The notes below the pieces were generated by a model, which was not told where the DNA came from, did no database searches, and saw only the letters and a list, made by a program, of their open reading frames with translations. A stretch of DNA of 58,008 nt from Rivularia sp. MS3 (GTDB lineage Bacteria; Cyanobacteriota; Cyanobacteriia; Cyanobacteriales; Nostocaceae). The stretch lies in NCBI GenBank assembly GCA_019192545.1, contig JAHCMI010000060.1, forward strand, positions 1-58,008. The letters are read 5' to 3'. Below, in pieces: positions 8,839 to 47,492 of this stretch (position 1 is the stretch's first letter; each line of letters begins with the position of its first letter). Made by a program: the position numbers and the translations under genes.

Positions 8839-8952
8839 TTCCACCCCAACGAGCGAGCTTTGGACTCCTAAAAGCTAGTGTGGTAAAGGTATCCGGCGAT
8901 TTTTCTAGAGAATACGGTAGCGGCTTGAAGAGTGGAAAAAATACTTTTTTCT

Positions 8953-9779: not shown

Positions 9780-10202
9780 ATGGAGAAAAACTTGGATAAA
9801 AAAGTTTATCAAGCAGGGCGTAAATCACAACCAAAACCAAAACGCACTTCACTTGTTAGCTTGCGGTTAACGGAGGAAGAAAAAGAAGCATGGGAAGCAA
9901 AAGCTGAAGAAGTAGGATTGGGAAATAACCTATCAAAATTTATCCGGTATTGTGTAGAGCATCGTCACATTGCACCACCAGCACCAGCAATTAATTCAGA
10001 TACCTATGCTGAATTGGGGAGAATTGGTAACAATATTAATCAAATTGCATATGCTATTAATCGTGCTATCAAGATGGGAGAACCCGTTACTACCTCACTA
10101 GAAGAAATTGAAGCTTTAAAACCATTGCTGCAAGAAGTTAAATTACAGTTGTTAGGAATGCCTTTTCAATACAACCCAGATAAAAATGTAGTAAGCGAAT
10201 GA
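9780..10202 (+). CDS. mobC: MobC-like relaxosome accessory protein (module 1)
   Basis: 140 aa. A basic N-terminus leads into a ribbon-helix-helix-like segment (SLVSLRLTEEEKEAWEAKA, then LSKFIRYCVEHR), followed by the family hallmark LGRIGNNINQIAYAINRA near residues 80-97. Bacterial MobC proteins bind oriT, help melt the nic region and recruit the relaxase. The start at 9780 is the first ATG; the preceding sequence is A+T-rich without a strong Shine-Dalgarno. It is followed 216 bp later by the relaxase gene on the same strand. A second MobC with the equivalent motif (LNSIGVNLNQIAKAVNRA) is encoded at 42527-42931. Confidence 0.85.
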   Translation: MEKNLDKKVYQAGRKSQPKPKRTSLVSLRLTEEEKEAWEAKAEEVGLGNNLSKFIRYCVEHRHIAPPAPAINSDTYAELGRIGNNINQIAYAINRAIKMGEPVTTSLEEIEALKPLLQEVKLQLLGMPFQYNPDKNVVSE

Positions 10203-27500: not shown

Positions 27501-28932
27501 CTTGTGGGATTATAGAAATCGCCTCACGCAAGTTGTTACTAAGGACGCAGCCGATAATACTATCAAGCAGGTACAGTACGCTTACGATGTTGATAATCGC
27601 CGCATTGCCAAAGAAGTAGACCCTGATGGGGATGGTACAGCAACTGCTGAAATTGAGCGCTTTGTTTATGACGGCGACCACATTGCTCTAACCTTTGACG
27701 GTAACGGTACGCAAACTCACCGATATTTGCACGGTTCGGGTATTGACCAGATTTTGGCAGACGAAAATGCCCGAGGTCAAACCCTATGGACGCTGACTGA
27801 CAATCAAAATACCGTGCGCGACTTGGTTGACTCCAATGGTGTAGTTCAAAATCACATTACTTACGATAGTTTTGGTAACGTTACCAGTCAAACTAATTCT
27901 GCTGTAAATACTCGGTTTGGTTATACGGGACGTGAGTTTGATGGGGAGACAGGGCAATATTACTATCGGGCTAGGTATTATGACTCAACAGTAGGGCGAT
28001 TTATTAACGAAGACCCGATTGGATTTGATAGTGGGGATATGAATCTTTATGCCTACGTTAGTAATAATCCAATAGGCATGGTTGACCCGACTGGAGAGTA
28101 TGGACGGGTAGTAAGTTTCAATCGTCGAATTAACTATATTAAACTTGATTCGTTTAAGACATTTTCTTCAAGAGATATGAGGGATGTGTGGTTTAAGTCT
28201 GGTGCCGCTACAGAGTTAGCGACTTTTAAACCATCAGCACTAAAGGGGATTACTTATGAAGATATATATCCCCCAATAAATCAAGAAAATAACTTACGGG
28301 TAAAACCAATATTTTTTATAAATAGAGATATTGTCACTGCTAGGATAGAAAAAGACCCTAATCAAACAACTAATTGGAAATCAGATCAAACTATACCTGT
28401 AGGGGGAAGACTTAGTAAAGCAGAAGGTGCAGGAGCAGATGAACAAAATGGACATATTATTCCTAATCTACTTGGCGGCTCTAATAAAACAATAGTTAAT
28501 CCTTTTGTTAATAATTTCTTTTCTCAAAATGCTTATGTAAATACATTTTTGTATAATAAATTTGGTCAATATTTAAATAAATACCTGGACTATCTTTATA
28601 GGCTCTATGAAGCAGAGAGTACTTATCGGGATGAAATACAAAATTGCTACTCAACTTTACCTCAAGAACCTCCTTATCTTAATATGGAAGTAAGGTTGAT
28701 ATATGCTGGTGATGAAAATCCATTAGCAGCTCAATTTCCCTTCAGACCTTCCGAATTCACAGTAAGAGCAGAATTTATAGTTCCGCAAGGACCCCCACCT
28801 TATAATTTATATCTGGCAAATTCAGTGGCACCTTCTCACTTGATTACTGCCAGATTCACTAATCCACTTGCCCAGTATGGCGGTACAGCTACAATTACCT
28901 CCAGTAATTTAGATCAAATTACATTGGATTAG
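15541..28932 (+). CDS. Giant RHS/YD-repeat polymorphic toxin with FG-GAP repeats and C-terminal nuclease
   Basis: The frame opens with TTG at 15520, but ATG at 15541 has GAAGGA 7 nt upstream, giving 4463 aa. Order: low-complexity N-terminus; three ~185-aa repeats beginning near 16009, 16558 and 17128 (LKFIQDRSKLKVFENG type); bacterial Ig-like domains (17.7-19.2 kb); a He_PIG/cadherin-like domain (about 20.1-20.4 kb); a carboxypeptidase-regulatory-like domain (20.4-20.7 kb); an RHS-associated N-terminal part (21.2-22.5 kb); 14 FG-GAP/VCBS repeats (22.6-24.6 kb); dozens of YD repeats (24.7-27.7 kb); the RHS core (GYTGREFDGETGQYYYRARY, DPIGFDSGD, NPIGMVDPTG) ending near 28110; then a ~275-aa variable tip. 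The tip has NGHIIPNLLGGSN and SQNAYVNTF, then RLIYAGDENP, typical of DNA/RNA non-specific endonuclease (His-Me finger) toxins. RHS shells encapsulate such tips. No signal peptide is seen. The immunity candidate follows at 29413. Confidence 0.9.
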   Translation: MASKDIFNNGNPEELFDSSLLDSSQEDIYGLNSGNKDNNPGSDPLSTEIEKLSTDNINIAYSTDNLGSETVSLVSEPFLFNETSSQNLLLGQQATDFNKTDTDLDKNNIDFLTGNNENNPLVGNPELKFSTDNNDDNSTSPTPTSAIPQAPGDITELKFIQDRSKLKVFENGELVEEVQAKQNQPIPFTIERLQIAALNSNDLPRVQDDSTFHDNGEGIGVKDGSDGNSSLRKRIDNDEIIQIKIQPTDNYNSAFSATVGVDRVEAIANKSAGGKVKIVAMRGATTIGEQIYNITNKKEQLTFSSDTAFDRLHLMAGDDNTKFTFRSTEFQAVVTPTSELTYLEFAPDELGISLTENGSIVEQFSVGENQPLPNNSSRLEVTAVDSQDDGSVLDTTNYLSAEGIGIIDGDDNTEVLQKRIDGDEILEFKIKSTDNYNSALSAIVALDKIKSVRANNNGTLKDGGAVKILALREDVLVGGTTYNINSETEEIFISSNQPFDKLQIQAGNEATQFTLRSVELESVTTSPSPTASLKFVQDRARLNVFENDVLSKQVRGRQNQAIPDAFERIQVSAVDSSDGSTVKVDSTFIDTGEGIGITDGQDGNSSLKKKIDGDEILQFKIKPTQSYETANQALISVDRVSAIDSKKNGGTVKVVALREGNIVSEQTYTIANKNQELSFASDNAFDTLQLQAGDNNTKFSFRYIDFGLITNITDNTDTEAPIISANLANDTAPNDTVNNDGITFDATIVGTVTDSSQIATFIAGLDDTPVADYENVLPQLKEDGSFTISQTALEQINGGVLTPGSHTLRLQAVDAFGNQSDVFDIAFTLDNDTAEPTLSLLSTSDSGTSDTDNITNDTVPRITGSAEAGSVVQLFQAGEQQQDSQLVGETTVDDTGNWQIATNNLADGTYEFSAIATDIAGNTNTSATPLQVTVDTTQPTINFTTSIDTESLAEGARLTGNLDGSGSDISAISYRFDDGAEIAVTFDDTGAFDQEFDLTGISDGDYTLTVTITDTAGNISTTTYNITIAAPSEITAALANDTAPDSTTNSDGITSDATVSGNISNFNSNVRLRGGFGETSAENYVDITDSVNSGGNFNLNLSQLANINRASLEDGAYSLNLLLEDLQGNQLSNSEVNFTLDTSNPVLELNTPVDGGEHSSLSRLIGSVSDTGSGILDTSYSLDGQASSPLTINNSGTFDQQIVPTGLTNGDHSLTLSVFDVAGNSTQTSANFTVSDDFIIGTTDTQGWGIKTADGVILGEQNSFVTQTAMEIELGQDEGKRQLEFEIDAQFDTSDTNTASEDRLSLYLVDSFSPEVTLLDQGEPGTALFSLSGTNAEFTPGLVNYDGNRVRVDLTSLEGQTGGSLVFQLINNDSDTGSVVQIKDITNTVDTEAIAGPVFPTDIERADVGEQINLGDFNTTTDVELLLSNVRLDSDTGTYTADLQVRNNGTTTLGRELVVALTNLPDGVSLNNASGNDSENSPYINLSNAIRPGGLNPQGISDAVQIVFDNPSLTRFDLQPVFYAGAPELPPQLSPIESQSVMPGERLEIPLIATDPNGDPISYSLRSDTPLPKGTLSGDGTLIFTPAPNDIGTYSFTVIATAGGVDVTQDVTITVEPDPITTTRVSGVIENTDQEALAGVVIELGGLQATTDANGYFQLEVDGELPSDTLKVRAELLAGDDAYPFIAEKLPLVLEHEVYEGVNNVISRPIYLPVLDTENGVAIDPNADTTVTTDTIPGASVFVAAGSLEDQEGNPFTGELSITEVPRDLTPAALPENLRPDVVVTIQPGEMVFTTPAPLSLPNRAGYAPGLEMDLWSINPNTGLFDKVGVGKVSDDGSVIETISGGIRNSSWHFLAPPPPEPDDLDKNKRNKDDKCKNCEVKNDINSEVELHSGTVLEAHNLVTYQSLGETRGLTLNYHSLRADPRQIVNFGYNNVASASSDKLVARLKIKSNDFKYELAGIASGQYGLLGSEHIWDIPENSNSLDAALQVDMRSMSSGKYEYDLTTGLQVFTGIEFFGSLSTGTGEIINVNSIDSAFGSGWGLAGLQEIVENDDGSLLLIDGDGTQLLFEAPIQTDDFYISPGGDFSNLERLVDGTFRRTIEDGTVYQFSAQNKLELVRDSNGNETQYQYNTDGQISKVIDPVGLETTFAYTNGRVSSITDPGNRITELEYDTQGNLIKITDPDESSRKWEYDKSHRMTAAIDKRGNRGEDIYDAYGRVKSAVRPDGSVVRVDPVQTQGLSRPEQTLNPFNAPVAEELGDADSSYADGNGNVTRTKLDQAGQAISSIDGAGFLPSVERNDDNLVTKSTSGRGNVTEYTYDEKGNVLSIKDEISSPNQGTGSNTSNSLFANPIYKTRENPDQIVAADLNGDGFLDIINANSYSSDVSILFGNEDGSFDAATNFEIGSNPSFITVGDINADDSLDIVSLSNDSSTISILLGDGEGSFTTGTSFAVKDKSSFLVLGDLDNDADLDIVVASGEGYGGSLLVMSNNGDATFSEIANYEIEEDPERLALGDVNGDGSQDIVTANNYYIPSVSVLLNNGDATFGQKTNYTPSAVSDVALGDVNGDGSQDIVTANYYGDTTVSVLLNNGDGTFADSTEYTVGSFPNSVTLGDVNGDGRQDIVTANYYGDSVSVLLNNSDGTFANSTEYALGDSFRSLALGDADGDGFLDLLSANYYDDNVSILLNNGNGSFETTEYEVGFSPESIISGDVNGDSIPDLLTPNTYDNGVSVLLGRGDGVFSDLLNYATDFYAKSVALGDVNGDGSSDLITSNYYDNNVSVLLNNGDGTFGSSSEYTVGSSPGYVATSDVNGDGSSDLITSSNYSDTVSVLLNNGDGTFGSNNEYAVGSSPSYVATSDVNGDGSFDIITANYGSDSISVLLNNGDGTFGSNSEYAVGFGPKSVELGDVNGDGNTDLVTVNYNNDSVSVLFNNGDGTFGSNSEYTVGEDPTSVALGDVNGDGLLDILTTNYYEDSVSVLLGDGSGFFLEENIRYFGVGDSPKSITLDDFDGDGDLDFATTNSNDNTVSIRLNNTVSPGGSVETTERRYTYDPIFNQVTSEIDELGRITLYEIDPNNGNMLSTTRVVGEIGGDDDVTTSYTYTDFGQIDTMTDALGRITDHDYDDFGRLIKTTVAKGTVDEAIQQFEYDGAGNQTAFIDENENRTEYEYDGLNRLVRTIEADPDGTGPLTSPISTYVYDDLGNLVSQTDAVGNISTNEYDDMGRLIKSIDALGNVNTYSYNKAGKRESVTDKLGNTTQYRYDARNRLIETIHPDGTTEKPQYDFDNNEVSTTDGNNNQTNKVYDARKRLIREIDALGNVTKYEYDVANQLIATIDANGNRTEYEYDDLGRRFATTDALGNTTTTEFNKVGNVVSQTDALGNITSYTYDNRDRNIQVTNALGNTTTTVYDAVGNVISQTDAKGRTNQYTYDALNRQIASTDALGNTATTNYNAVGNVTSQIDLLGRTTQYTYDALNRQIASTDALGNTSTTAYDILGNVISTTDELGRTTRFIYDELNRRTGITDALGNTTITNYDADGRVASYTDALGRSTQFNYDALNRITGVTDALGNTTTTVYNAVGNVDSTTDALGRTTTYDYDALNRQTSVTDALGNTTTTTFDEVGNISAITDGLGNQTSFTYDALYRQIGLTDANGDTETTTYDEVGNVVARTDAEENTTTFGYDALNRLIAETNALGATRFFDYDAIGNQTLITDRNGRKRTFTYDLLNRRNQENWLDESDNAIRSIDYTYDAAGQLTAVSDPDSAYSHTYDAAGRLIKVNNAGTTGVPNVLLNYTYDAVGNRLSVTDTINGQLSGIEEFTYDNLNRVTKITQSGNEVADKRVDMTYDAAGQLKNVTRYADLAGTQLVADSIHTYDDAGKLSGLSHVKGDTTFADYNWDYDTANRITQFTSSDGTSDYSYDNTNQLTETDHSFQADEAYSYDDNGNRTNTGYVTGGNNRLQSDGIYNYEYDAEGNLTKRTEIGTGEVTEYLWDYRNRLTQVVTKDAADNTIKQVQYAYDVDNRRIAKEVDPDGDGTATAEIERFVYDGDHIALTFDGNGTQTHRYLHGSGIDQILADENARGQTLWTLTDNQNTVRDLVDSNGVVQNHITYDSFGNVTSQTNSAVNTRFGYTGREFDGETGQYYYRARYYDSTVGRFINEDPIGFDSGDMNLYAYVSNNPIGMVDPTGEYGRVVSFNRRINYIKLDSFKTFSSRDMRDVWFKSGAATELATFKPSALKGITYEDIYPPINQENNLRVKPIFFINRDIVTARIEKDPNQTTNWKSDQTIPVGGRLSKAEGAGADEQNGHIIPNLLGGSNKTIVNPFVNNFFSQNAYVNTFLYNKFGQYLNKYLDYLYRLYEAESTYRDEIQNCYSTLPQEPPYLNMEVRLIYAGDENPLAAQFPFRPSEFTVRAEFIVPQGPPPYNLYLANSVAPSHLITARFTNPLAQYGGTATITSSNLDQITLD
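22626..24640 (+). repeat. 14 FG-GAP/VCBS repeats within RHS gene
   Basis: Fourteen units of about 147-150 bp, each with a calcium-loop pattern D-x-N-G-D-G-x-x-D and an ending like VSVLLNNGDGTF. Several adjacent units between 23.2 and 24.4 kb are nearly identical at the DNA level, so recent tandem duplication and recombination are likely. The block interrupts the usual order of RHS proteins, lying between the RHS N-terminal part and the main YD-repeat run. Confidence 0.85.
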
Positions 28933-39696: not shown

Positions 39697-40776
39697 TTAC
39701 AGCTTGCTCATCGAATCCAAAGTCAGCAAAGTGCTAATTTCATCATTCTGGAAACCCAATGCCATTGGTCGCCGTACCTGCGGTAATATTTGTACATCGT
39801 ATAATTCTCTAATTACCCCAGACACAGAAACCGAGTGGACGATTTCACCTGTATTTATATCAACTACCATCAATCCACAACGAGCTTCTTCTCCTTTCTC
39901 CGTCAACCTTTCATCCAACGCTAACCCAGAAAAAGTTTTATCTTCCCCTCGCGGCTTAGATAATCCAATAATTGCCCACTGCTTCCAAAATGCCAACCCC
40001 CGCAAATAACCGGGACAAAACGCTACAACTTCAAAACTTCCCCTTTCCAAATCAATATAACCAAACTCCCCAGTTCCCGAATTCATCAACCACAACTTAC
40101 CTTGATAAAACCGAGGTGAATGGGGCATCGATAACCCAGATACAATAACTTCATTGCTAGTAACATCAATTACACAACCTCCATCACGACGCTTTTCTCG
40201 CCAAGCATCCTTTACATCGGTTTGAGCAACTGCCGTTACATAGCCCGGTTTGCCGTCCACCATTGCCATTCCATTCAAATGACAGCGGTCTTCATTTACC
40301 ACTTTAGAAATAAACGACGGTTTCCACAACGGCGTACAGCTATTGTGTTCGCTTACCGTCGCCAAACAATTAAGCAACGTACTGACAAAAACTATCCTTC
40401 CAGAAGAATCAACAGTAACATCGTGGATATCCAAATCCCCCGTAGTATAACCAGTGCGGGGAACGTAAAGTTTATCGTAACCTTGATAATTCTGTCCCGG
40501 AGCAAGTACGTTATCAAACTGCCACAATTGATACTTGCTACTGAGGTAGAAGCGCTCGGAACCAACCGTATACAACCCCATTGCTCGGTTAAAATTGCGC
40601 TCAAACCCAGAAAATCTTCCTTCTTGTCCAATTCCCAGCAATATCAAACGACTGGTTTGGTAGGTAGTAAAAGCTAAACTTATTTGTTCTTGATACAACC
40701 ATCCCACAAACTTTTGAGAGCAATTTATTTCCAAAGCTGGGGAATTAGAAGTAGGTTTGGAACTTGTAACAACCAT
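39697..40776 (-). CDS. TIGR03032/DUF4915 family beta-propeller protein
   Basis: 359 aa. Recognised from the characteristic segments of TIGR03032: RLILLGIGQEGR near the start, DLDIHDV, FVSTLLNCLA, WKPSFISKVVNEDRCHLNG, GLSMPHSPRFYQGKLWLMNS and GYLRGLAFWKQWAIIGLS. The fold is a predicted beta-propeller. Family members often sit with glycosyltransferase or sulfotransferase genes; their biochemical role is not established. Intact, no signal peptide. It precedes the two-domain glycosyltransferase on the same strand, though the repeat-filled 160-bp gap may separate transcription. Confidence 0.8.
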   Translation of the reverse strand: MVVTSSKPTSNSPALEINCSQKFVGWLYQEQISLAFTTYQTSRLILLGIGQEGRFSGFERNFNRAMGLYTVGSERFYLSSKYQLWQFDNVLAPGQNYQGYDKLYVPRTGYTTGDLDIHDVTVDSSGRIVFVSTLLNCLATVSEHNSCTPLWKPSFISKVVNEDRCHLNGMAMVDGKPGYVTAVAQTDVKDAWREKRRDGGCVIDVTSNEVIVSGLSMPHSPRFYQGKLWLMNSGTGEFGYIDLERGSFEVVAFCPGYLRGLAFWKQWAIIGLSKPRGEDKTFSGLALDERLTEKGEEARCGLMVVDINTGEIVHSVSVSGVIRELYDVQILPQVRRPMALGFQNDEISTLLTLDSMSKL

Positions 40777-41167: not shown

Positions 41168-42523
41168 CTAACGTTCCAATCCTTGATTTTTTTGAATATT
41201 TTGACGTTCATGTTGGTTATTGAGTATTCGTTGTAATTCCAAAAATCTTTCTACATCGGATTCATTCAAATTAAATCCTTGTGGTGTCGTACTGTTGTCC
41301 GTAGGAATGTCAGCAATCTTTTCACCCATGCGGCGTTTAAGCGTTAATATTCCTTCTTCCAATGTAATGCTGTAGTGATTGCCTTTAATAGATTTAGGAC
41401 GTTTATTAATTTCCCAAAATTGTCGGATGGTAGGAGTAATTTTATTAACGTATTCTTGTTGAATAAGATTGATTTCCTGGGTAGCGTTTGGTTGCTTATC
41501 TTCACTCTTGTGTTGATTGGTTATGGCGGTAGTTTTTAGTTCATTATCTTCAACTCTAGGTTGACTGTTTTCATCAATAAACGTTGGTTTATCATCAGTA
41601 ATGGAGTATGGAGAAACGCTCTTAACAGGAAGTTTGACTAATTGCCCATCGCGTGCGCTTCTCAATGCTGGTATATCGCGTTCTGAGTTGTAATCAACAC
41701 CTTTACGTTGAAGCAGTCCAGGAAAGCTGTAAGCCTTACCCAGCTTCCAACCAGCCATCTTTACCCCATTCATAGAAAACGCGATCGCGTTCTTAAATTT
41801 CCCCTTCGTACTAAAGCTAGGGTGTACGTTTATATGAAGCTTTTGGAGTCGAGCAATTAATTCGGTGACTGTTGGTTGGTCAAAAGTTGCTTCATCGATA
41901 GCGTCAGCTAGTAATTGTTTAACGGGTGGCTTACCGCTAAAATGGTGCTTCTGTTTCTTAGTTTGGGCGCTGCGTTCTCCAACAGTTGTTTTAATACCAT
42001 GTTTCTGTTTAACTTTTTCTGCCACTCGTTCGTTACTACAGCGTGTTGGCTCCAAACCAAATTCTTGCTCTAATTGTCGCACCACCACTTCACTGCGGCG
42101 GTAGTCCCAAGAATCCGGTACAACTGACCCATCCATGCGAATGCGGCTAGCGATTATATGAATATGTTCGTGCTTGGTGTCTTGGTGACGGGCAATTACG
42201 TACTGACTTTTGTGCAAACCATCACCCAGGAACTCCATTTCTTTTAACCAGCGCCTAGCAATTAGAGCGTATTTCTCATCATCTAAATGTTCGTGGTATT
42301 CCCCCTGGGGGTGAGATGCTTCGCGGTGAGGTAGAGACAAAATTATGTGACCGCAAGCGCGTTGAAAATTCGGTCGCATTCTTCTAGCTGCACCAAATTC
42401 TCTAGCTAATTGTCGAGGATTGTACCCACCCATATTGCTGTCAATAATTACATAGTCTTCTTTCTCTAAAGCGTATTCCAGAGTGGAGCGGAAGCTGCGG
42501 TTTTTCATTTGGTTGGCAATCAC
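41168..42523 (-). CDS. Relaxase/mobilization nuclease, MobA/VirD2-type (module 2)
   Basis: 451 aa, starting with GTG at 42523; this start is supported by alignment with relaxase-1 (MIANQMKN and MIGNITKG share the position relative to the catalytic Tyr17 in TLEYALEKE). The histidine motif is the canonical RHQDTKHEHIHIIASRI (about residues 111-127). A long Lys/Arg-rich region follows. The C-terminal ~80 residues (from RPKSIKGNHYSITLEE through KRRMGEKIADIP) match those of relaxase-1, although the N-terminal domains have clearly diverged. It lies 3 bp after mobC-2, so they are coupled. The enzyme would nick oriT and pilot the strand during conjugation driven by a helper. Confidence 0.85.
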   Translation of the reverse strand: MIANQMKNRSFRSTLEYALEKEDYVIIDSNMGGYNPRQLAREFGAARRMRPNFQRACGHIILSLPHREASHPQGEYHEHLDDEKYALIARRWLKEMEFLGDGLHKSQYVIARHQDTKHEHIHIIASRIRMDGSVVPDSWDYRRSEVVVRQLEQEFGLEPTRCSNERVAEKVKQKHGIKTTVGERSAQTKKQKHHFSGKPPVKQLLADAIDEATFDQPTVTELIARLQKLHINVHPSFSTKGKFKNAIAFSMNGVKMAGWKLGKAYSFPGLLQRKGVDYNSERDIPALRSARDGQLVKLPVKSVSPYSITDDKPTFIDENSQPRVEDNELKTTAITNQHKSEDKQPNATQEINLIQQEYVNKITPTIRQFWEINKRPKSIKGNHYSITLEEGILTLKRRMGEKIADIPTDNSTTPQGFNLNESDVERFLELQRILNNQHERQNIQKNQGLER

Positions 42524-42526
42524 TCG

Positions 42527-42931
42527 CTACTTCTCCTCTACTCTTCGCCCGTCATCCACAACCCCACATTCCAACAACTGCATTTGTGTTTCTCGAATGG
42601 AAGCATTTAACTTCGTAACCAAATTCTGTAATCGCTCAACATCAACATTCGCCCCCTTCCCCGATTTAACTGCTCGATTAACAGCCTTAGCGATTTGATT
42701 TAGATTTACCCCAATAGAATTTAACTCCTCATACAACTTCCAATTTAATTGCGGGGGTGGTGGTGGTTCTACAACTTGTCTTCTGAGCGCCGCACGACGA
42801 ATAAATTCCGTCAAAGATACTCGCGCATTGTAGGCTTTTAGCTTTAATTGTTCGTACTCGTCGTCCGCAAATCGCACCGGATGTGTGATTTTACGAGCGA
42901 CACCATCGCTTCTTTTAGTTTTACTTCCCAT
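42527..42931 (-). CDS. mobC: MobC-like relaxosome accessory protein (module 2)
   Basis: The open frame can start with GTG at 42991, but that extra 20-residue part (GRRQRLAPAEGYG) is the translation of a dispersed cyanobacterial repeat; ATG at 42931 (MGSKTKRSDGV) is chosen, giving 134 aa. RHH-type segment KITHPVRFADDEYEQLKLKA and VSLTEFIRRAAL, proline spacer, then the MobC hallmark LNSIGVNLNQIAKAVNRA. Same architecture as MobC-1, different sequence. The relaxase-2 gene follows after 3 bp. Confidence 0.85.
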   Translation of the reverse strand: MGSKTKRSDGVARKITHPVRFADDEYEQLKLKAYNARVSLTEFIRRAALRRQVVEPPPPPQLNWKLYEELNSIGVNLNQIAKAVNRAVKSGKGANVDVERLQNLVTKLNASIRETQMQLLECGVVDDGRRVEEK

Positions 42932-42968
42932 AACAGATAACCCATCTGTGCCATAGCCCTCCGCAGGA

Positions 42969-43316
42969 GCCAGCCGTTGCCGTCGTCCCACAGGGGCGTT
43001 CTGCGCGTACAGCGTAGAAAGGCAACATGGCTGGCGTTAAACCCAGTTGCTGCATATGAATAAACTAGCGCAAAAATACAAAAACGTGGGAGAAAATAAC
43101 GAGAAAATATTGTTAGAAAAAATGGGTTAATTGGATGAATGAGTAATTAAGAGAAAGGTGTAATTACTACACTTTTTATTTTTAAATTAATATGTCTTTT
43201 TGTATAGGTAAAAGTGCCGAATGTCACAGTCATAGCACAGTTGCTATACTGTTTTTTGAGATTAATTAAATGCTTATGACACAGCGATAACGAGATTTTT
43301 GTGTAACTACTGTGCT
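42969..43316. promoter_or_regulatory. Inverted repeats upstream of mobC-2, candidate oriT region
   Basis: GCCAGCCGTTGCC (42969-42981) pairs with GGCAACATGGCTGGC (43021-43035), with a two-base bulge and a 39-nt spacer. Further out, AGCACAGT (43234-43241) pairs with ACTGTGCT (43309-43316). The gap 42932-43668 contains no gene. Relaxases of this family usually nick next to an inverted repeat just upstream of mobC, so oriT-2 is expected here. Part of the first repeat belongs to a dispersed cyanobacterial repeat, which weakens the case. Confidence 0.35.
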
Positions 43317-43668: not shown

Positions 43669-44973
43669 ATGACAACAACGTGCAATATTTTTCTATCAGT
43701 TGATGTTGGGGGTTCCCAAACCAAGATTATTTATCAATTTTCAGGTTGGAATAAACCAAACTGTTTACTCATGTCCCCCGGTGTCGAACAAATTACCAAG
43801 TCCGATTTAAAGCGCTATTACGACCAATCGGGTTGGCTTGGCGCTCCCTCTATAGAACAACAAGCCTGGGTGGAGTGGAAAGGTAGCATCTTTGTGGTGG
43901 GAGATTTTACGTCAGAGTTTGCAGCAATCGATAGAATTTTTGAACGTAAATATGAAAACGCTTTGTACAAAGTACTGGCTGCAATTGGTGTCATCTTGTC
44001 AAAGCATGATGTTAAATCCAAACGCAGAAAAAATGCTTCCTCGCAATCAATCAAAGTAAATCTGTATATCGGGTTATTACTTCCCTGGAACGAATACAAC
44101 GACCGCAATCGGTTCCAAGAACAGTTGGAACTGATGCTTAGAAGCCTCAAGTTTTGCGGACAATCCTGGAACGTTAATTTATCTGCTTTTGAATGTCGTC
44201 CAGAAGGTGGAGGTTTAGCTGCAATTCGTATCAAACAAAAAGGTTTGGAATGGCTGCAAGAAAATAAAGTTGTAGTATTAATGTTTGGACATCGCAACGT
44301 GACAGCAATTTATTTTGATGGAGGTGCTATCAAACGGGGAGATAGTCCTTTATTGGGTTTCTCTACTTTTCTAGATGATGTTTGTAGACGGGTAAGCGGC
44401 TTGGAGCGAGATAAATTAGCAGCCTCCATCTTTGAAACCATCGATTATTCCGAACACCATATTTACCATGACGAATGTACCGTTCATCCCAAATGGGAAG
44501 AGAGTAAAGCAATTGCAACATTAGCAACAGCTAAAGATGAAACCTTAAGAAAATTAGAAAAAGAAGATATAGTTAAAGCGATAAAACTAGCAATACCTTC
44601 TTATTGGAATCAAATAAAAAAATGGTTAGATAAAAATATCTATTCTATGCCTGATGAGGTAATTATTGGTGGAGGGGCTGCGGTATTTTTAGAACCAGAA
44701 TTAGAAGAATATTTTAATTGTAAAGGTATTAAACCGGAGAGTCATAGTTATAGAGAAAGGAAAATCGGAGAAAGAACAAATACTTATTACGGTCGGGATT
44801 ATATTAACCATGCGGATTTAGTTTGGGTTGAAGACATCCAAAAACGAATTGGAAATATTTTTAGTTTCAAATGGAAGATTAAGAAACATCAATCAATTCG
44901 TTTAATTGATTGTTTTGGAATGTTCTCGCAGTTAAAAGATATTGTCACAGAGACAGAAAATGCCAAAAACTAA
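43669..44973 (+). CDS. Actin-like ATPase, ParM/StbA-type plasmid segregation protein (copy 2)
   Basis: 434 aa. Phosphate-1 motif DVGGSQTKIIY (residues 12-22) is clear and the adenosine motif EVIIGGGAAVFLEPELEEYF occurs around residues 330-349. The phosphate-2 region VVVLMFGHRNVTAIYFDGG (201-219) has FGHRN in place of the usual D-x-G, so its catalytic Asp is missing or elsewhere; the first copy (1221-2198) has the standard DIGGGT. The next gene overlaps its end by 14 bp and encodes a small basic protein like a ParR adaptor. Direct repeats occur directly upstream. The product probably forms filaments for plasmid segregation. Start ATG at 43669 has no strong Shine-Dalgarno. Confidence 0.75.
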   Translation: MTTTCNIFLSVDVGGSQTKIIYQFSGWNKPNCLLMSPGVEQITKSDLKRYYDQSGWLGAPSIEQQAWVEWKGSIFVVGDFTSEFAAIDRIFERKYENALYKVLAAIGVILSKHDVKSKRRKNASSQSIKVNLYIGLLLPWNEYNDRNRFQEQLELMLRSLKFCGQSWNVNLSAFECRPEGGGLAAIRIKQKGLEWLQENKVVVLMFGHRNVTAIYFDGGAIKRGDSPLLGFSTFLDDVCRRVSGLERDKLAASIFETIDYSEHHIYHDECTVHPKWEESKAIATLATAKDETLRKLEKEDIVKAIKLAIPSYWNQIKKWLDKNIYSMPDEVIIGGGAAVFLEPELEEYFNCKGIKPESHSYRERKIGERTNTYYGRDYINHADLVWVEDIQKRIGNIFSFKWKIKKHQSIRLIDCFGMFSQLKDIVTETENAKN

Positions 44974-45397
44974 AAGGGTACGTAAAAGCTTGAGTTTGCG
45001 TCTCCAACCTTATGAAGGTACACCCCTTGCAGAAGTGGCTGATTATCTCAACAGTTTGGATAAAGAAGAAGCAACTCGGAGAATAGGAGAAATTTTGGTA
45101 ATGGCATTTCTGCCATACGCTAGTAAAGGAAACGGTCAGTGTAATACAGATAAATTACGTTCTGCTTTTTTGATAGCGCGAGATATGGCAGACAAACACT
45201 TTGGTATTATGGCGCTGGCTTTAGGGTTGGATGCGGTATATGCCGTTGCTACACCAATTGTAAGTACTGGTGGTAATGGGGTTGATATAAATTCCCAGGT
45301 AAATAAAGAAGAATCACCCCATGAAGTTGAGGTTCAGAATTCCAGTTTGATTGAAGGAAAAGCAACGGCTACTGAGATAGGTAAACTTTTTGGTTGA
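44960..45397 (+). CDS. ParR-like adaptor (partition module 2)
   Basis: The frame opens at 44942, but ATG at 44960 (MPKTKRVRKSLSLRLQ) gives a typical RHH-type N-terminus: basic residues, strand SLSLRL and helices PLAEVADYLNSL and KEEATRRIGEILVMAFL. 145 aa. It overlaps the actin-like gene by 14 bp, hence coupled. The C-terminal third is acidic and probably disordered up to ATEIGKLFG, which could be the filament-binding tail. It converges with parB, with only 30 bp between stops. Confidence 0.6.
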   Translation: MPKTKRVRKSLSLRLQPYEGTPLAEVADYLNSLDKEEATRRIGEILVMAFLPYASKGNGQCNTDKLRSAFLIARDMADKHFGIMALALGLDAVYAVATPIVSTGGNGVDINSQVNKEESPHEVEVQNSSLIEGKATATEIGKLFG

Positions 45398-45427: not shown

Positions 45428-46654
45428 TCATTGCTCAGACAGAAGCTTTTCAATATCACCCAACAATTTTTCCAACTTCTTGCGCTTTCTAGCATCACCC
45501 CATACCGAAGCTCCCTTAAGCTGCTTACCAATATTTACAACTCGTTGAGAAGCAGCTATCTTCGGTGATATTTCTTGCTCCTCTTCGGATTGTAATTTTT
45601 TTATCAACTCTTTGATTTGAGTCAGAGAAAGATTTTGACTAATTACCTTTTTGAGTAACTTTGTGCGTTGTTGTTTATCTTTAACTCGTGCAATTGCACG
45701 GGCTTTGGTATACTCAATTCTTCCAGATGCTAACGCTTGTTGAATATCACTGGAGAGGTTTAATAAAGGTAGACGATTTGCTCGGAATGACTCGGGAGAA
45801 AGCCTACCAATAGAAGTAAATACGTTGTTTATTATCTCAACATCTTCTGAGCGGATAACGTTATCCGCTTGTGGTTTCTGAGAACGGCGAATAACATTAT
45901 CCGCTGTTTTATCTGCCAACTTCCCTTCATGGCGGATAACATTATCCGCTGTTTTATCCACTGACTTTTCATCCGAGCGGATAACATTATCCGCCTTTCT
46001 TTCTTCTGACTTCCTCTCGTGGCGGATAACATTATCCGCTTGCTTCTTTTCTTTAGAGCTACTAACGTTATCCGCTGTTTTATTCCCTGACTTCCCCTCG
46101 TGGCGGATAACATTATCCGCTTGCTTGCGGTTGGCTTTCTCCATACGATTGAGCAAGCTGATTACCTCGGACTGCGTTATTCCCAACCGCAGCGCTAGTA
46201 ATTCCAAAATCCCAATTGTTTCCTCATACGCATTCAAATCTTCACGCTGGAGGTTTTCAATTAACTGTACTTGTTTAACCGTATCGTCATCCATTTCCTT
46301 GACGACACATGGAACTTCTTTAAGTCCTGCAATTCCAGCTGCTTTAAAACGACGTTCCCCAGCAATAAGTTCGTACAAACCATCATTCAACGGACGCACA
46401 AGTAACGGCTCTAGTATGCCTAGTTCTTTAATCGACTGCGCGAGGCTCGATAGCTTTTGCTGGTCAAAATATCGCCTGGGTTGGTTTGGGTCTAATTTAA
46501 TTTTCTCGGACGCAATTGTATTGTTGGTTTTATTGTTGGAAGTTGCTTGTACTAAGCTTTGCTCGGAAGTATCAGAATCTTCACCGCCAAACATTAAATC
46601 CAATGGTTTAGCGTGTTTGAGTTTTGCACTATAAGCTACGTTTTTCTTGCTCAC
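45428..46654 (-). CDS. parB: ParB/Spo0J-type partition protein with in-frame ADNVIR repeats
   Basis: 408 aa. Residues ~50-150 are the ParB N-terminal (CTPase) domain: DPNQPRRYFDQQKLSSLAQS, LLVRPL, YELIAGERRFKAA, then QLIENLQREDLNAYEE. A helix-turn-helix segment follows (LRLGITQSEVISLLNRM, ~152-168). Residues ~177-270 are an insertion made of ADNVIR repeats separated by charged 6- or 9-residue spacers (for example HEGKLADKT). The DNA-binding region resumes at VFTSIGRLSPESF and NRLPLLNLSSDIQQAL, and a helical C-terminus ends the protein. The ADNVIR units are the translation of an 18-bp palindrome described separately. ATG overlaps the parA stop by 4 bp. ParB would load at parS, spread as a CTP-dependent clamp, and stimulate ParA. 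Without the insertion the length (~315 aa) would be ordinary for the family. Confidence 0.9.
   Translation of the reverse strand: MSKKNVAYSAKLKHAKPLDLMFGGEDSDTSEQSLVQATSNNKTNNTIASEKIKLDPNQPRRYFDQQKLSSLAQSIKELGILEPLLVRPLNDGLYELIAGERRFKAAGIAGLKEVPCVVKEMDDDTVKQVQLIENLQREDLNAYEETIGILELLALRLGITQSEVISLLNRMEKANRKQADNVIRHEGKSGNKTADNVSSSKEKKQADNVIRHERKSEERKADNVIRSDEKSVDKTADNVIRHEGKLADKTADNVIRRSQKPQADNVIRSEDVEIINNVFTSIGRLSPESFRANRLPLLNLSSDIQQALASGRIEYTKARAIARVKDKQQRTKLLKKVISQNLSLTQIKELIKKLQSEEEQEISPKIAASQRVVNIGKQLKGASVWGDARKRKKLEKLLGDIEKLLSEQ
45851..46120 (-). repeat. Array of seven 18-bp palindrome-like sites inside parB (candidate parS)
   Basis: Arms GCGGATAA and TTATCCGC around a central CG or CA. 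Copies: 45851-45868 (perfect GCGGATAACGTTATCCGC), 45887-45904 (one arm mismatch), 45932-45949, 45977-45994, 46022-46039, 46058-46075 (degenerate left arm, CG centre), 46103-46120. Steps are 36, 45, 45, 45, 36 and 45 bp, all multiples of 9, and every copy is in the same codon phase of parB. Read in that phase, the palindrome gives Ala-Asp-Asn-Val-Ile-Arg on either strand. The degenerate copy reads ADNVSS. Confidence 0.9.
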
Positions 46655-47424
46655 GATTTTACTTCAAGTTTTTCTAACTCTTTCACTATTTTCTTCATCA
46701 CTTTTACGGCTGCGTGTTTTTTATCATACATAGCCAGCGGCATTCTACGCTCGGATGCGTCAGCAAAAGCAATGGATTTAGGGATGGCAGGATATATAGT
46801 CCCCACCTGGGAAAGTTGTTCTTGTACTGCGTTCAAAGTACGGGTTTCTTGTGCCGTGCGACTATCTAACATAGTAGGAATAAAACCAGCAATTTGTAGA
46901 TTCTTGTTGAGTTTTTTCTTCACACGGGCAATGGTATCGAGAAGTAGGTCGGTACCAAGGAAGGATTTAAATTGACACTGGATTGGTACTACTAAATGTG
47001 TAGCAGCCGTTAAGCTAAGGATACTCAAAATACCAAGCGATGGAGGACAGTCAATCAAGATAAAATCATAATTATCCTTTATGGGGGCGAGTGCTTCAGC
47101 TAGACGATATTCTCGTGCGGTTGCGGCTGGTAGAAGAAGTTCGGCAGCGCTAAGGTTAATGTTAGTGGGAGCAAGCTGAATTCCGTTGATGGGTTCGGGG
47201 TAAATAAATAATGGTTCCTCGTCAATTATGGCATTGTAGACAGTTTGTTCGAGTGATTCAGGGTCTACACCCATAAACTGAGTAAGACTTGCTTGGGGGT
47301 CCATATCAACTAGCAAAACTCGGCGTTTATTGGCGGCGAGGTGGTAGCCCAGATTGTGAGTCAAAGTAGTCTTAGAAACGCCGCCGGATTGGTTAAATAG
47401 CGTGATGATGCGGGTAAAATTCAC
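46651..47424 (-). CDS. parA: ParA-type partition ATPase
   Basis: 257 aa. Deviant Walker A is FNQSGGVSKTTLTHN (residues 10-24), in which Ser13 occupies the place of the usual signature lysine (KGGxxKT) and Ser17 replaces the usual Gly; the P-loop Lys18 and Thr19 are kept. Walker A' LLVDMDPQASLT and Walker B FILIDCPPSLG are intact. No N-terminal HTH domain, so this is a small (type Ib/Soj-like) ParA. It overlaps parB by 4 bp in a parAB operon. It would form the nucleoid-bound gradient that moves ParB-parS complexes. The palindrome at 47475-47492 lies 50 bp upstream, suitable for autoregulation by ParB. Confidence 0.9.
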   Translation of the reverse strand: MNFTRIITLFNQSGGVSKTTLTHNLGYHLAANKRRVLLVDMDPQASLTQFMGVDPESLEQTVYNAIIDEEPLFIYPEPINGIQLAPTNINLSAAELLLPAATAREYRLAEALAPIKDNYDFILIDCPPSLGILSILSLTAATHLVVPIQCQFKSFLGTDLLLDTIARVKKKLNKNLQIAGFIPTMLDSRTAQETRTLNAVQEQLSQVGTIYPAIPKSIAFADASERRMPLAMYDKKHAAVKVMKKIVKELEKLEVKS

Positions 47425-47474: not shown

Positions 47475-47492
47475 GCGGATAACGTTATCCGC
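47475..47492. promoter_or_regulatory. Non-coding parS-like palindrome upstream of parA
   Basis: Perfect 18-bp palindrome GCGGATAACGTTATCCGC, identical to the copy at 45851-45868 within parB. It lies 50 bp upstream of the parA start in non-coding DNA, which argues that the element is conserved as a DNA site and not merely as a peptide repeat. Likely parS and/or an operator in the parAB promoter. Confidence 0.75.

Follow-up and report, generated by a model that had tools for sequence, protein, structure and literature searches.

Most plasmid parB genes of a family found in Nostocales, other cyanobacteria and Thermaceae carry short palindromes within their coding sequence. In all likelihood (at a probability of about 0.9), these palindromes are the parS sites of the ParB proteins encoded around them, that is, the binding and CTP-clamp loading sites of a self-encoded ParB in a ParABS plasmid partition system. 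In Rivularia sp. MS3 the site is multiplied in frame into an array, which a preliminary description of this DNA had proposed to be parS inside parB. Synonymous-codon shuffles across the family, and covariation between the sites and the recognition helix of ParB, speak for that proposal.

The par locus of Rivularia sp. MS3

The window, meaning the whole 58,008-nt stretch of DNA analysed (contig JAHCMI010000060.1), contains adjacent parA and parB genes on the minus strand. parA (46651..47424) encodes a ParA-type ATPase of 257 amino acids (AAA_31, E 1.2e-50) and overlaps the start of parB (45428..46654) by 4 nt. The 408-residue ParB has a ParB_N match at residues 46-136 (E 9.7e-30), a GERR motif at residues 99-102 and an HTH_ParB match at residues 292-355 (E 1e-11), the last covering only positions 38-101 of the 102 in the profile. 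Together with palindromic sites that lie near parAB and are specific to this replicon, these are features expected of a ParABS system. The site array is held in a variable linker of approximate bounds 45824..46135 (minus strand), and the HMM alignments are compatible with a linker loop lying before the HTH or inside its turn. The putative recognition helix, SPESFRANRLP (45767..45799, minus strand; residues 286-296, with the N293 codon at 45776-45778), can be aligned, though at only 20 bits, with the stretch of Thermus Spo0J (1VZ0) that contains its recognition helix. For Caulobacter ParB, insertion of this helix into the major groove of parS has been reported (PMC7383237).

Within parB, GCGGATAACGTTATCCGC recurs seven times in frame between 45851 and 46120, in exact or degenerate form. 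The copies start at 45851, 45887, 45932, 45977, 46022, 46058 and 46103, with steps of 36, 45, 45, 45, 36 and 45. All seven are in one codon phase, in which the intact form reads A-D-N-V-I-R. Site 1 (45851..45868) is the perfect palindrome. Site 2 (45887..45904) has two mismatches, one in an arm and one central (C to T on the parB strand). Sites 3 (45932..45949), 4 (45977..45994), 5 (46022..46039) and 7 (46103..46120) have intact arms and a central CG altered by C to T on the parB strand. Site 6 (46058..46075) has lost its left arm, carries three mismatches and encodes ADNVSS. Both 8-bp arms are thus intact in five of the seven sites. Helical phasing of the copies was not evident, 36 and 45 not being multiples of 10.5. 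The coordinates and phase given for this array in the preliminary description were confirmed, and no such sites appeared in 100 shuffles of the 58,008-nt window. An eighth copy (site 8, 47475..47492), again a perfect palindrome, precedes the parA start codon by 50 nt.

Allowing up to two mismatches, the whole draft genome (9.19 Mb, 174 contigs) contains seven sites, six in parB and one upstream of parA, all on JAHCMI010000060.1, and no copy elsewhere. The preliminary description, which had called for a scan for further copies, did not mention the perfect one upstream of parA. A promoter scan gave no match beside site 8 (one match in the region against 1.8 expected); this site is possibly an operator, a parS, or both. 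A lone perfect palindrome with an AACGTT core, TGGTAACGTTACCA, at 27873-27886, lies away from the par genes and may be due to chance.

Other genes in the window bear on plasmid maintenance and transfer. Beside parAB lies a gene for an actin-like protein (43669-44973, plus strand), which matches the NCBIfam FcmB model at E 9e-9, far under its cut-off, and the PDB CorM entry 9rmi at E 3.8e-6. It is neighboured by a small gene (44942-45397, plus strand), also next to parAB, and the two perhaps form a second, ParM-like system. Annotated ParM/StbA genes occur about 2 kb from parB at locus L038 and about 9 kb from it at L305. A MobA/VirD2-type relaxase and a NikA/MobC-like gene (41168-42991, minus strand) make the plasmid look mobilisable.

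Conservation of the site in the ParB family

ParB regions were collected from cyanobacterial genomes and from named plasmids, including those of Thermaceae; in one collection round, matches at E up to 0.001 turned up in 130 of 386 genomes. The 225 ORF hits comprised 187 distinct sequences; seven were removed for unclear linker bounds or low coverage, and the remaining 180 gave 127 representatives with 85% similarity or less in the ParB core. At least one perfect 14-bp palindrome was found in the linker loop of 85 of these 127. Among the other 42, a further 25 had a site with one mismatch and 17 had none by the criteria used, one-mismatch sites having been sought in a single phase and with a core filter only. 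A palindrome inside parB is therefore not peculiar to the Rivularia plasmid; counting sites with no more than one mismatch, it is the rule in this family (110 of 127 representatives).

The codon phase was identical in all 101 perfect linker palindromes examined. These 101 palindromes lie in 12.4 kb of linker, compared with 12 in the remaining 116 kb of the same genes. When codons were shuffled synonymously within genes (200 shuffles), a mean of 3.9 loci, and at most nine, had a palindrome. The perfect sites comprise 26 different palindromes encoding 42 different hexapeptides. In four cases the Asn-Val core is replaced (by GACGTC, by ATCGAT and twice by AGCGCT), the peptide changing and the palindrome being kept. 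It was said earlier that homologues keeping ADNVIR with the palindrome destroyed would point to the peptide as the only object of selection. The opposite was found, with 42 hexapeptides among 85 perfect sites and the palindrome kept beyond the shuffles. Since 26 palindromes are spelled by 42 hexapeptides, computation shows that selection acts on the DNA beyond the peptide. The shared position of the sites would reflect common ancestry.

Among close relatives, parB of Nostoc C057 contains a single perfect copy, and the flanking DNA examined has none upstream of parA. Between fixed motifs its ParB has 66 residues, against 150 in Rivularia, a difference of 84; the preliminary description had put the addition at about 93. 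In-parB copy number, which had been suggested for comparison, does vary among relatives, from one in Nostoc C057 to seven. A perfect site at a similar upstream distance occurs in Calothrix PCC 6303 pCAL6303.01, Calothrix NIES-4101 plasmid4, Microchaete NIES-3275 plasmid08 and Nostoc FACHB-892, and the in-parB copy number varies among these four; in pCAL6303.01 none of the copies within parB is perfect. Upstream placement like that of site 8 is seen at loci L035, L036, L037 and L042. A scan of genome contigs gave two loci. Gloeothece has the palindrome CAATAACGTTATTG, encoding DNNVIG, whose arms differ jointly from those of GCGGATAACGTTATCCGC; CAATAACGTTATTG and ACATAACGTTATGT are sites of other classes than GCGGATAACGTTATCCGC.

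Covariation of the arms with the recognition helix

Mutual information between arm bases 1-4 and the variable ParB columns (linker removed) was compared with permutations in 75 of the 110 site-bearing representatives, namely those with a perfect site and a score over 300 bits. Arm base 4, which is next to the core, was linked to the N293 column at z=28 (background mean 0.8, sd 2.5). The top columns for arm base 2 (P287 and R291) and arm base 3 (A292) also fall in the helix stretch, and the top column for arm base 1, N169, lies before the linker. In 37 disjoint pairs of nearest relatives, base 4 differs in 13; residue 293 differs in 12 of these 13 and is the same in all of the remaining 24 (p=7e-9, uncorrected for the 816 tests made). 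Base 4 is also linked to the L285 column in this test (2.6e-5), and after correction none of the recognition-helix columns remains significant for bases 1-3.

The resulting table is nearly a code: T goes with Asn in 82 of 82 sites, C with His in 15 of 15, and A or G with Ser, Thr, Ala, Lys or Val in 60 of 60. All 157 symmetric sites fit, and one further asymmetric C/T site has His. These 158 come from the 180 sequences after leaving out 19 without a site and three without a parsed residue (two of which fit by eye, the third being truncated). All 25 one-mismatch representatives, which lie outside the 75-sequence set, obey the base-4 rule (His in L211 being assigned by eye). A ParB on a viral contig (L225) has TAGTAACGTTACTA with Asn and fits as well. 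It is the one locus followed out of 80 viral loci and the sole site bearer among the best 40 ORFs listed, where the next score drops from 302 to 157 bits.

Shared ancestry was assessed on a tree of 105 of the 110 representatives (those over 250 bits). Its well-supported branches offer only four independent base-4 pairs, all of which agree (p=0.125). A link between arm-2 G and Arg291 was rejected as mostly ancestry, being largely gone on well-supported branches despite z=10.8 in the mutual-information test. The link between arm-3 G and Arg292 is moderate, with agreement in about 3.6 of 6 on such branches. Given the palindromes throughout the family and the covariation of their bases with the helix, ParB very probably binds these sites as parS.

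Sites elsewhere in replicons and genomes

An extra copy matched to the site in parB was found within 1.5 kb in 27 of the 110 representatives, 20 of them with one upstream, as against 3 of 2288 in a mismatched-arm control with sites of other classes; the sequence analysed included at least 1 kb of upstream DNA for 103 of the 110. An earlier count on the first 51 ParBs had given 13 with a second matched copy nearby (control 0 of 861). Counted as perfect 14-mers in 100 genomes, their own included, the GGAT class has 10 copies (reversed control 1) and the CAAT class 66 (control 3). The ACAT 14-mer, with 12 copies against 7 in the reversed control, is barely above it. A number of the perfect copies found in relatives are at a distance from the ParBs collected. 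In genome G000 the arm classes are on separate contigs (GGAT on C130; CAAT on C20, C35 and C155; ACAT on C145). Site-bearing ParB fragments stand there at contig starts (C35:3-743 and C155:41-562), as if the assembly had broken at the parB arrays.

Six plasmids or contigs were read whole, and their sites are confined to parB, the region upstream of parA and positions no further than about 3.1 kb from parB. The single site of Trichormus variabilis plasmid B (35.8 kb) is in parB. The nearby sites outside parB are at 8878 on pP742403, at 40013 on pCENA543b and, on pCAL6303.01, at 10109 in a second ParB fragment. On pCENA543b (L310), parB contains the asymmetric CCGTAACGTTATGG (41372), and the copy at 40013, about 1.4 kb away, is equal and likewise imperfect. 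On pCAL6303.01 (L305:7335-10559) a second ParB-like gene has an N-terminal part that looks KilA-N-like by eye. An ISKra4-type transposase comes after this gene, and past the transposase a ParB-like stretch holds the degenerate site at 10109.

Arrays and diversification

Two to seven copies are present in 13 of the 110 representatives. On the tree of 105, the multi-copy state requires six changes, two of them forced by well-supported branches; the array was gained or lost more than once. Related arrays differ in their arms, with CAAT in L011 and L076 and CCAT in L029 and L159. Because each of these arrays is mostly homogeneous (L159 having one CAAT-like degenerate copy), the comparison suggests that arrays undergo concerted change. 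The repeat period in L029 is mostly 81 bp.

Plasmid incompatibility stems in part from partition specificity. The idea that site diversity is driven by the avoidance of equal co-resident sites was tested and found no support: of 133 pairs of ParBs from the same genome, 11 have an identical 14-mer, compared with 5.6 expected, and 1978 of 2000 shuffles did not exceed 11. Equal sites are thus shared more than by chance, and there is no sign that incompatibility drives the diversity. Nine of the 11 sharing pairs come from genomes G029 and G133, and 32 of the 36 multi-ParB genomes share none. The shared 14-mers, of the CAAT and GAGA classes, belong to L046, L048, L049 and L102 in G029 and to L145, L146 and L148 in G133, locus assignment being inferred. 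This sharing would be unexpected if equal sites meant incompatibility.

Alternative explanations

ParB might bind the palindromes mainly as operators for autoregulation of parAB, with the centromere elsewhere, as could be read from the perfect copy 50 nt upstream of parA and from the upstream copies in 20 of the 110 representatives. However, a site deep within parB makes a poor operator, no promoter match stands beside site 8, and 83 of the 110 have no further copy within 1.5 kb in the sequence analysed, which included at least 1 kb upstream for 103 of the 110. Across the 35.8 kb of Trichormus plasmid B, moreover, the site is in parB only, so that a mainly operator role appears improbable. It is still harder to credit that ADNVIR was selected as a functional linker repeat to which the palindrome is incidental. 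All copies are indeed in frame, and the linker varies in length without frameshift; yet the palindrome is spelled by more hexapeptides than there are palindromes, is lost under synonymous shuffling and recurs as equal sites outside coding sequence, and an arm base at a third codon position tracks the recognition helix. A linker role for the array peptide is not needed, yet it may exist alongside.

Control of parB translation or decay by hairpins of the repeats in mRNA would fit the parB-sense strand, which folds far better than shuffles (z -8.6), and site 8, which also scores as a terminator-like hairpin. The parB strand is self-complementary in any case because the sites are palindromic, and covariation with a DNA-recognition helix is not predicted by RNA pairing, which makes this explanation very improbable. 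Selfish palindromic elements inserted in frame are known from Rickettsia, where they occur in several unrelated genes. The Rivularia sites resemble them in being palindromic, in frame and repeated, but they have no copies elsewhere in the genome, occupy a single homologous position in one gene family and are matched to their own ParB; an origin of this type seems extremely improbable.

Proposed mechanism and implications

In the preferred reading, that the palindromes are parS sites of the ParB encoded around them, parS would lie among the codons for a variable loop on the N-terminal side of the recognition helix, in a single reading phase and usually with the core AAC GTT (Asn-Val). Arm bases differ pairwise between lineages, the palindrome being kept, along with a residue of the recognition helix, so that gene and centromere would switch specificity as one unit. 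In some lineages, Rivularia included, the site has been multiplied in frame to 2-7 copies, in a loop that would tolerate changes of copy number in three-base steps. ParB would load at the sites and ParA would most likely move the plasmid; many copies may give stronger ParB loading, and the copy upstream of parA may have an additional role in autoregulation.

A more comprehensive reading, which we favour only slightly over its negation, joins these elements. In it parB would be a self-addressed centromere cassette with a nearly one-letter code (T-Asn, C-His, A or G-other), in-frame tandem growth and concerted arrays, and in Thermus thermophilus HB27 the published parS would be secondary, the main site being GGGACAACGTTGTTCC in the same gene. 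As helix and site are in one gene, both would travel and change specificity together. This touches an old question, namely how a DNA-binding protein and its site can change together without a failing intermediate. The 26 natural perfect versions, with reader and site apparently in one gene, offer ready pairs for specificity-switch tests, and site/ParB pairs are candidate orthogonal plasmid labels. The parS of unstudied cyanobacterial and Thermus plasmids should be predictable from parB alone.

Comparison with known systems

The closest precedent is the megaplasmid of T. thermophilus HB27. Its ParBm is reported to bind AAGGACGCGTCCTT within its own gene in EMSA, and competition was specific for ParABm-parSm against the chromosomal parS (PMC4409726). 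HB27 and Rivularia share a plasmid ParB of this family whose gene contains a palindrome that the protein binds in HB27 and probably binds in Rivularia. Unlike in Rivularia, the HB27 palindrome is a single copy, and AAGGACGCGTCCTT, at nt 657, lies 184 nt beyond the family position. AAGGACGCGTCCTT (L107:3158-3171) is absent from four further Thermaceae ParBs in the comparison. In HB27 the family position is occupied by GGACAACGTTGTTC, with one mismatch, and the helix residue is His, as the code predicts (C-His). The family site is present in all eight Thermaceae ParBs examined, six perfect and two with one mismatch (HB27 among them), and all fit the code. The parSm palindrome published for HB27 differs from the family site conserved in this gene; its published binding in EMSA is undisputed.

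For ParB and Noc, Jalal 2020 (PMC7383237) describes a switch in which a few residues within the recognition helix and close to it determine which palindrome is chosen, with two specificities tested by mutagenesis and a crystal structure. By comparison, the present family, known from computation alone, offers 26 natural palindromes, each inside the gene of its presumed reader.

That parS can lie inside parB was already known, from B. subtilis and T. thermophilus. Among the titles and abstract openings returned by searches of open-licence literature, none described a parS array inside parB or a cyanobacterial plasmid parS, and apparently new with respect to that literature are the family-wide self-encoded centromere with diversified sites, the helix code and the in-frame, copy-variable arrays. 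On the chromosome of B. subtilis, parS lies within spo0J (parB) as one copy of the widespread TGTTNCACGTGAAACA type; a parS within a parB gene is what is proposed for Rivularia too, but the B. subtilis copy is single and not an array. In the sopC centromere of the F plasmid, a 43-bp repeat occurs 12 times in tandem, and SopB binds an inverted repeat within each unit. This locus resembles the Rivularia locus in being an array of palindromic sites with similar spacing, and differs in lying outside coding sequence, downstream of sopB.
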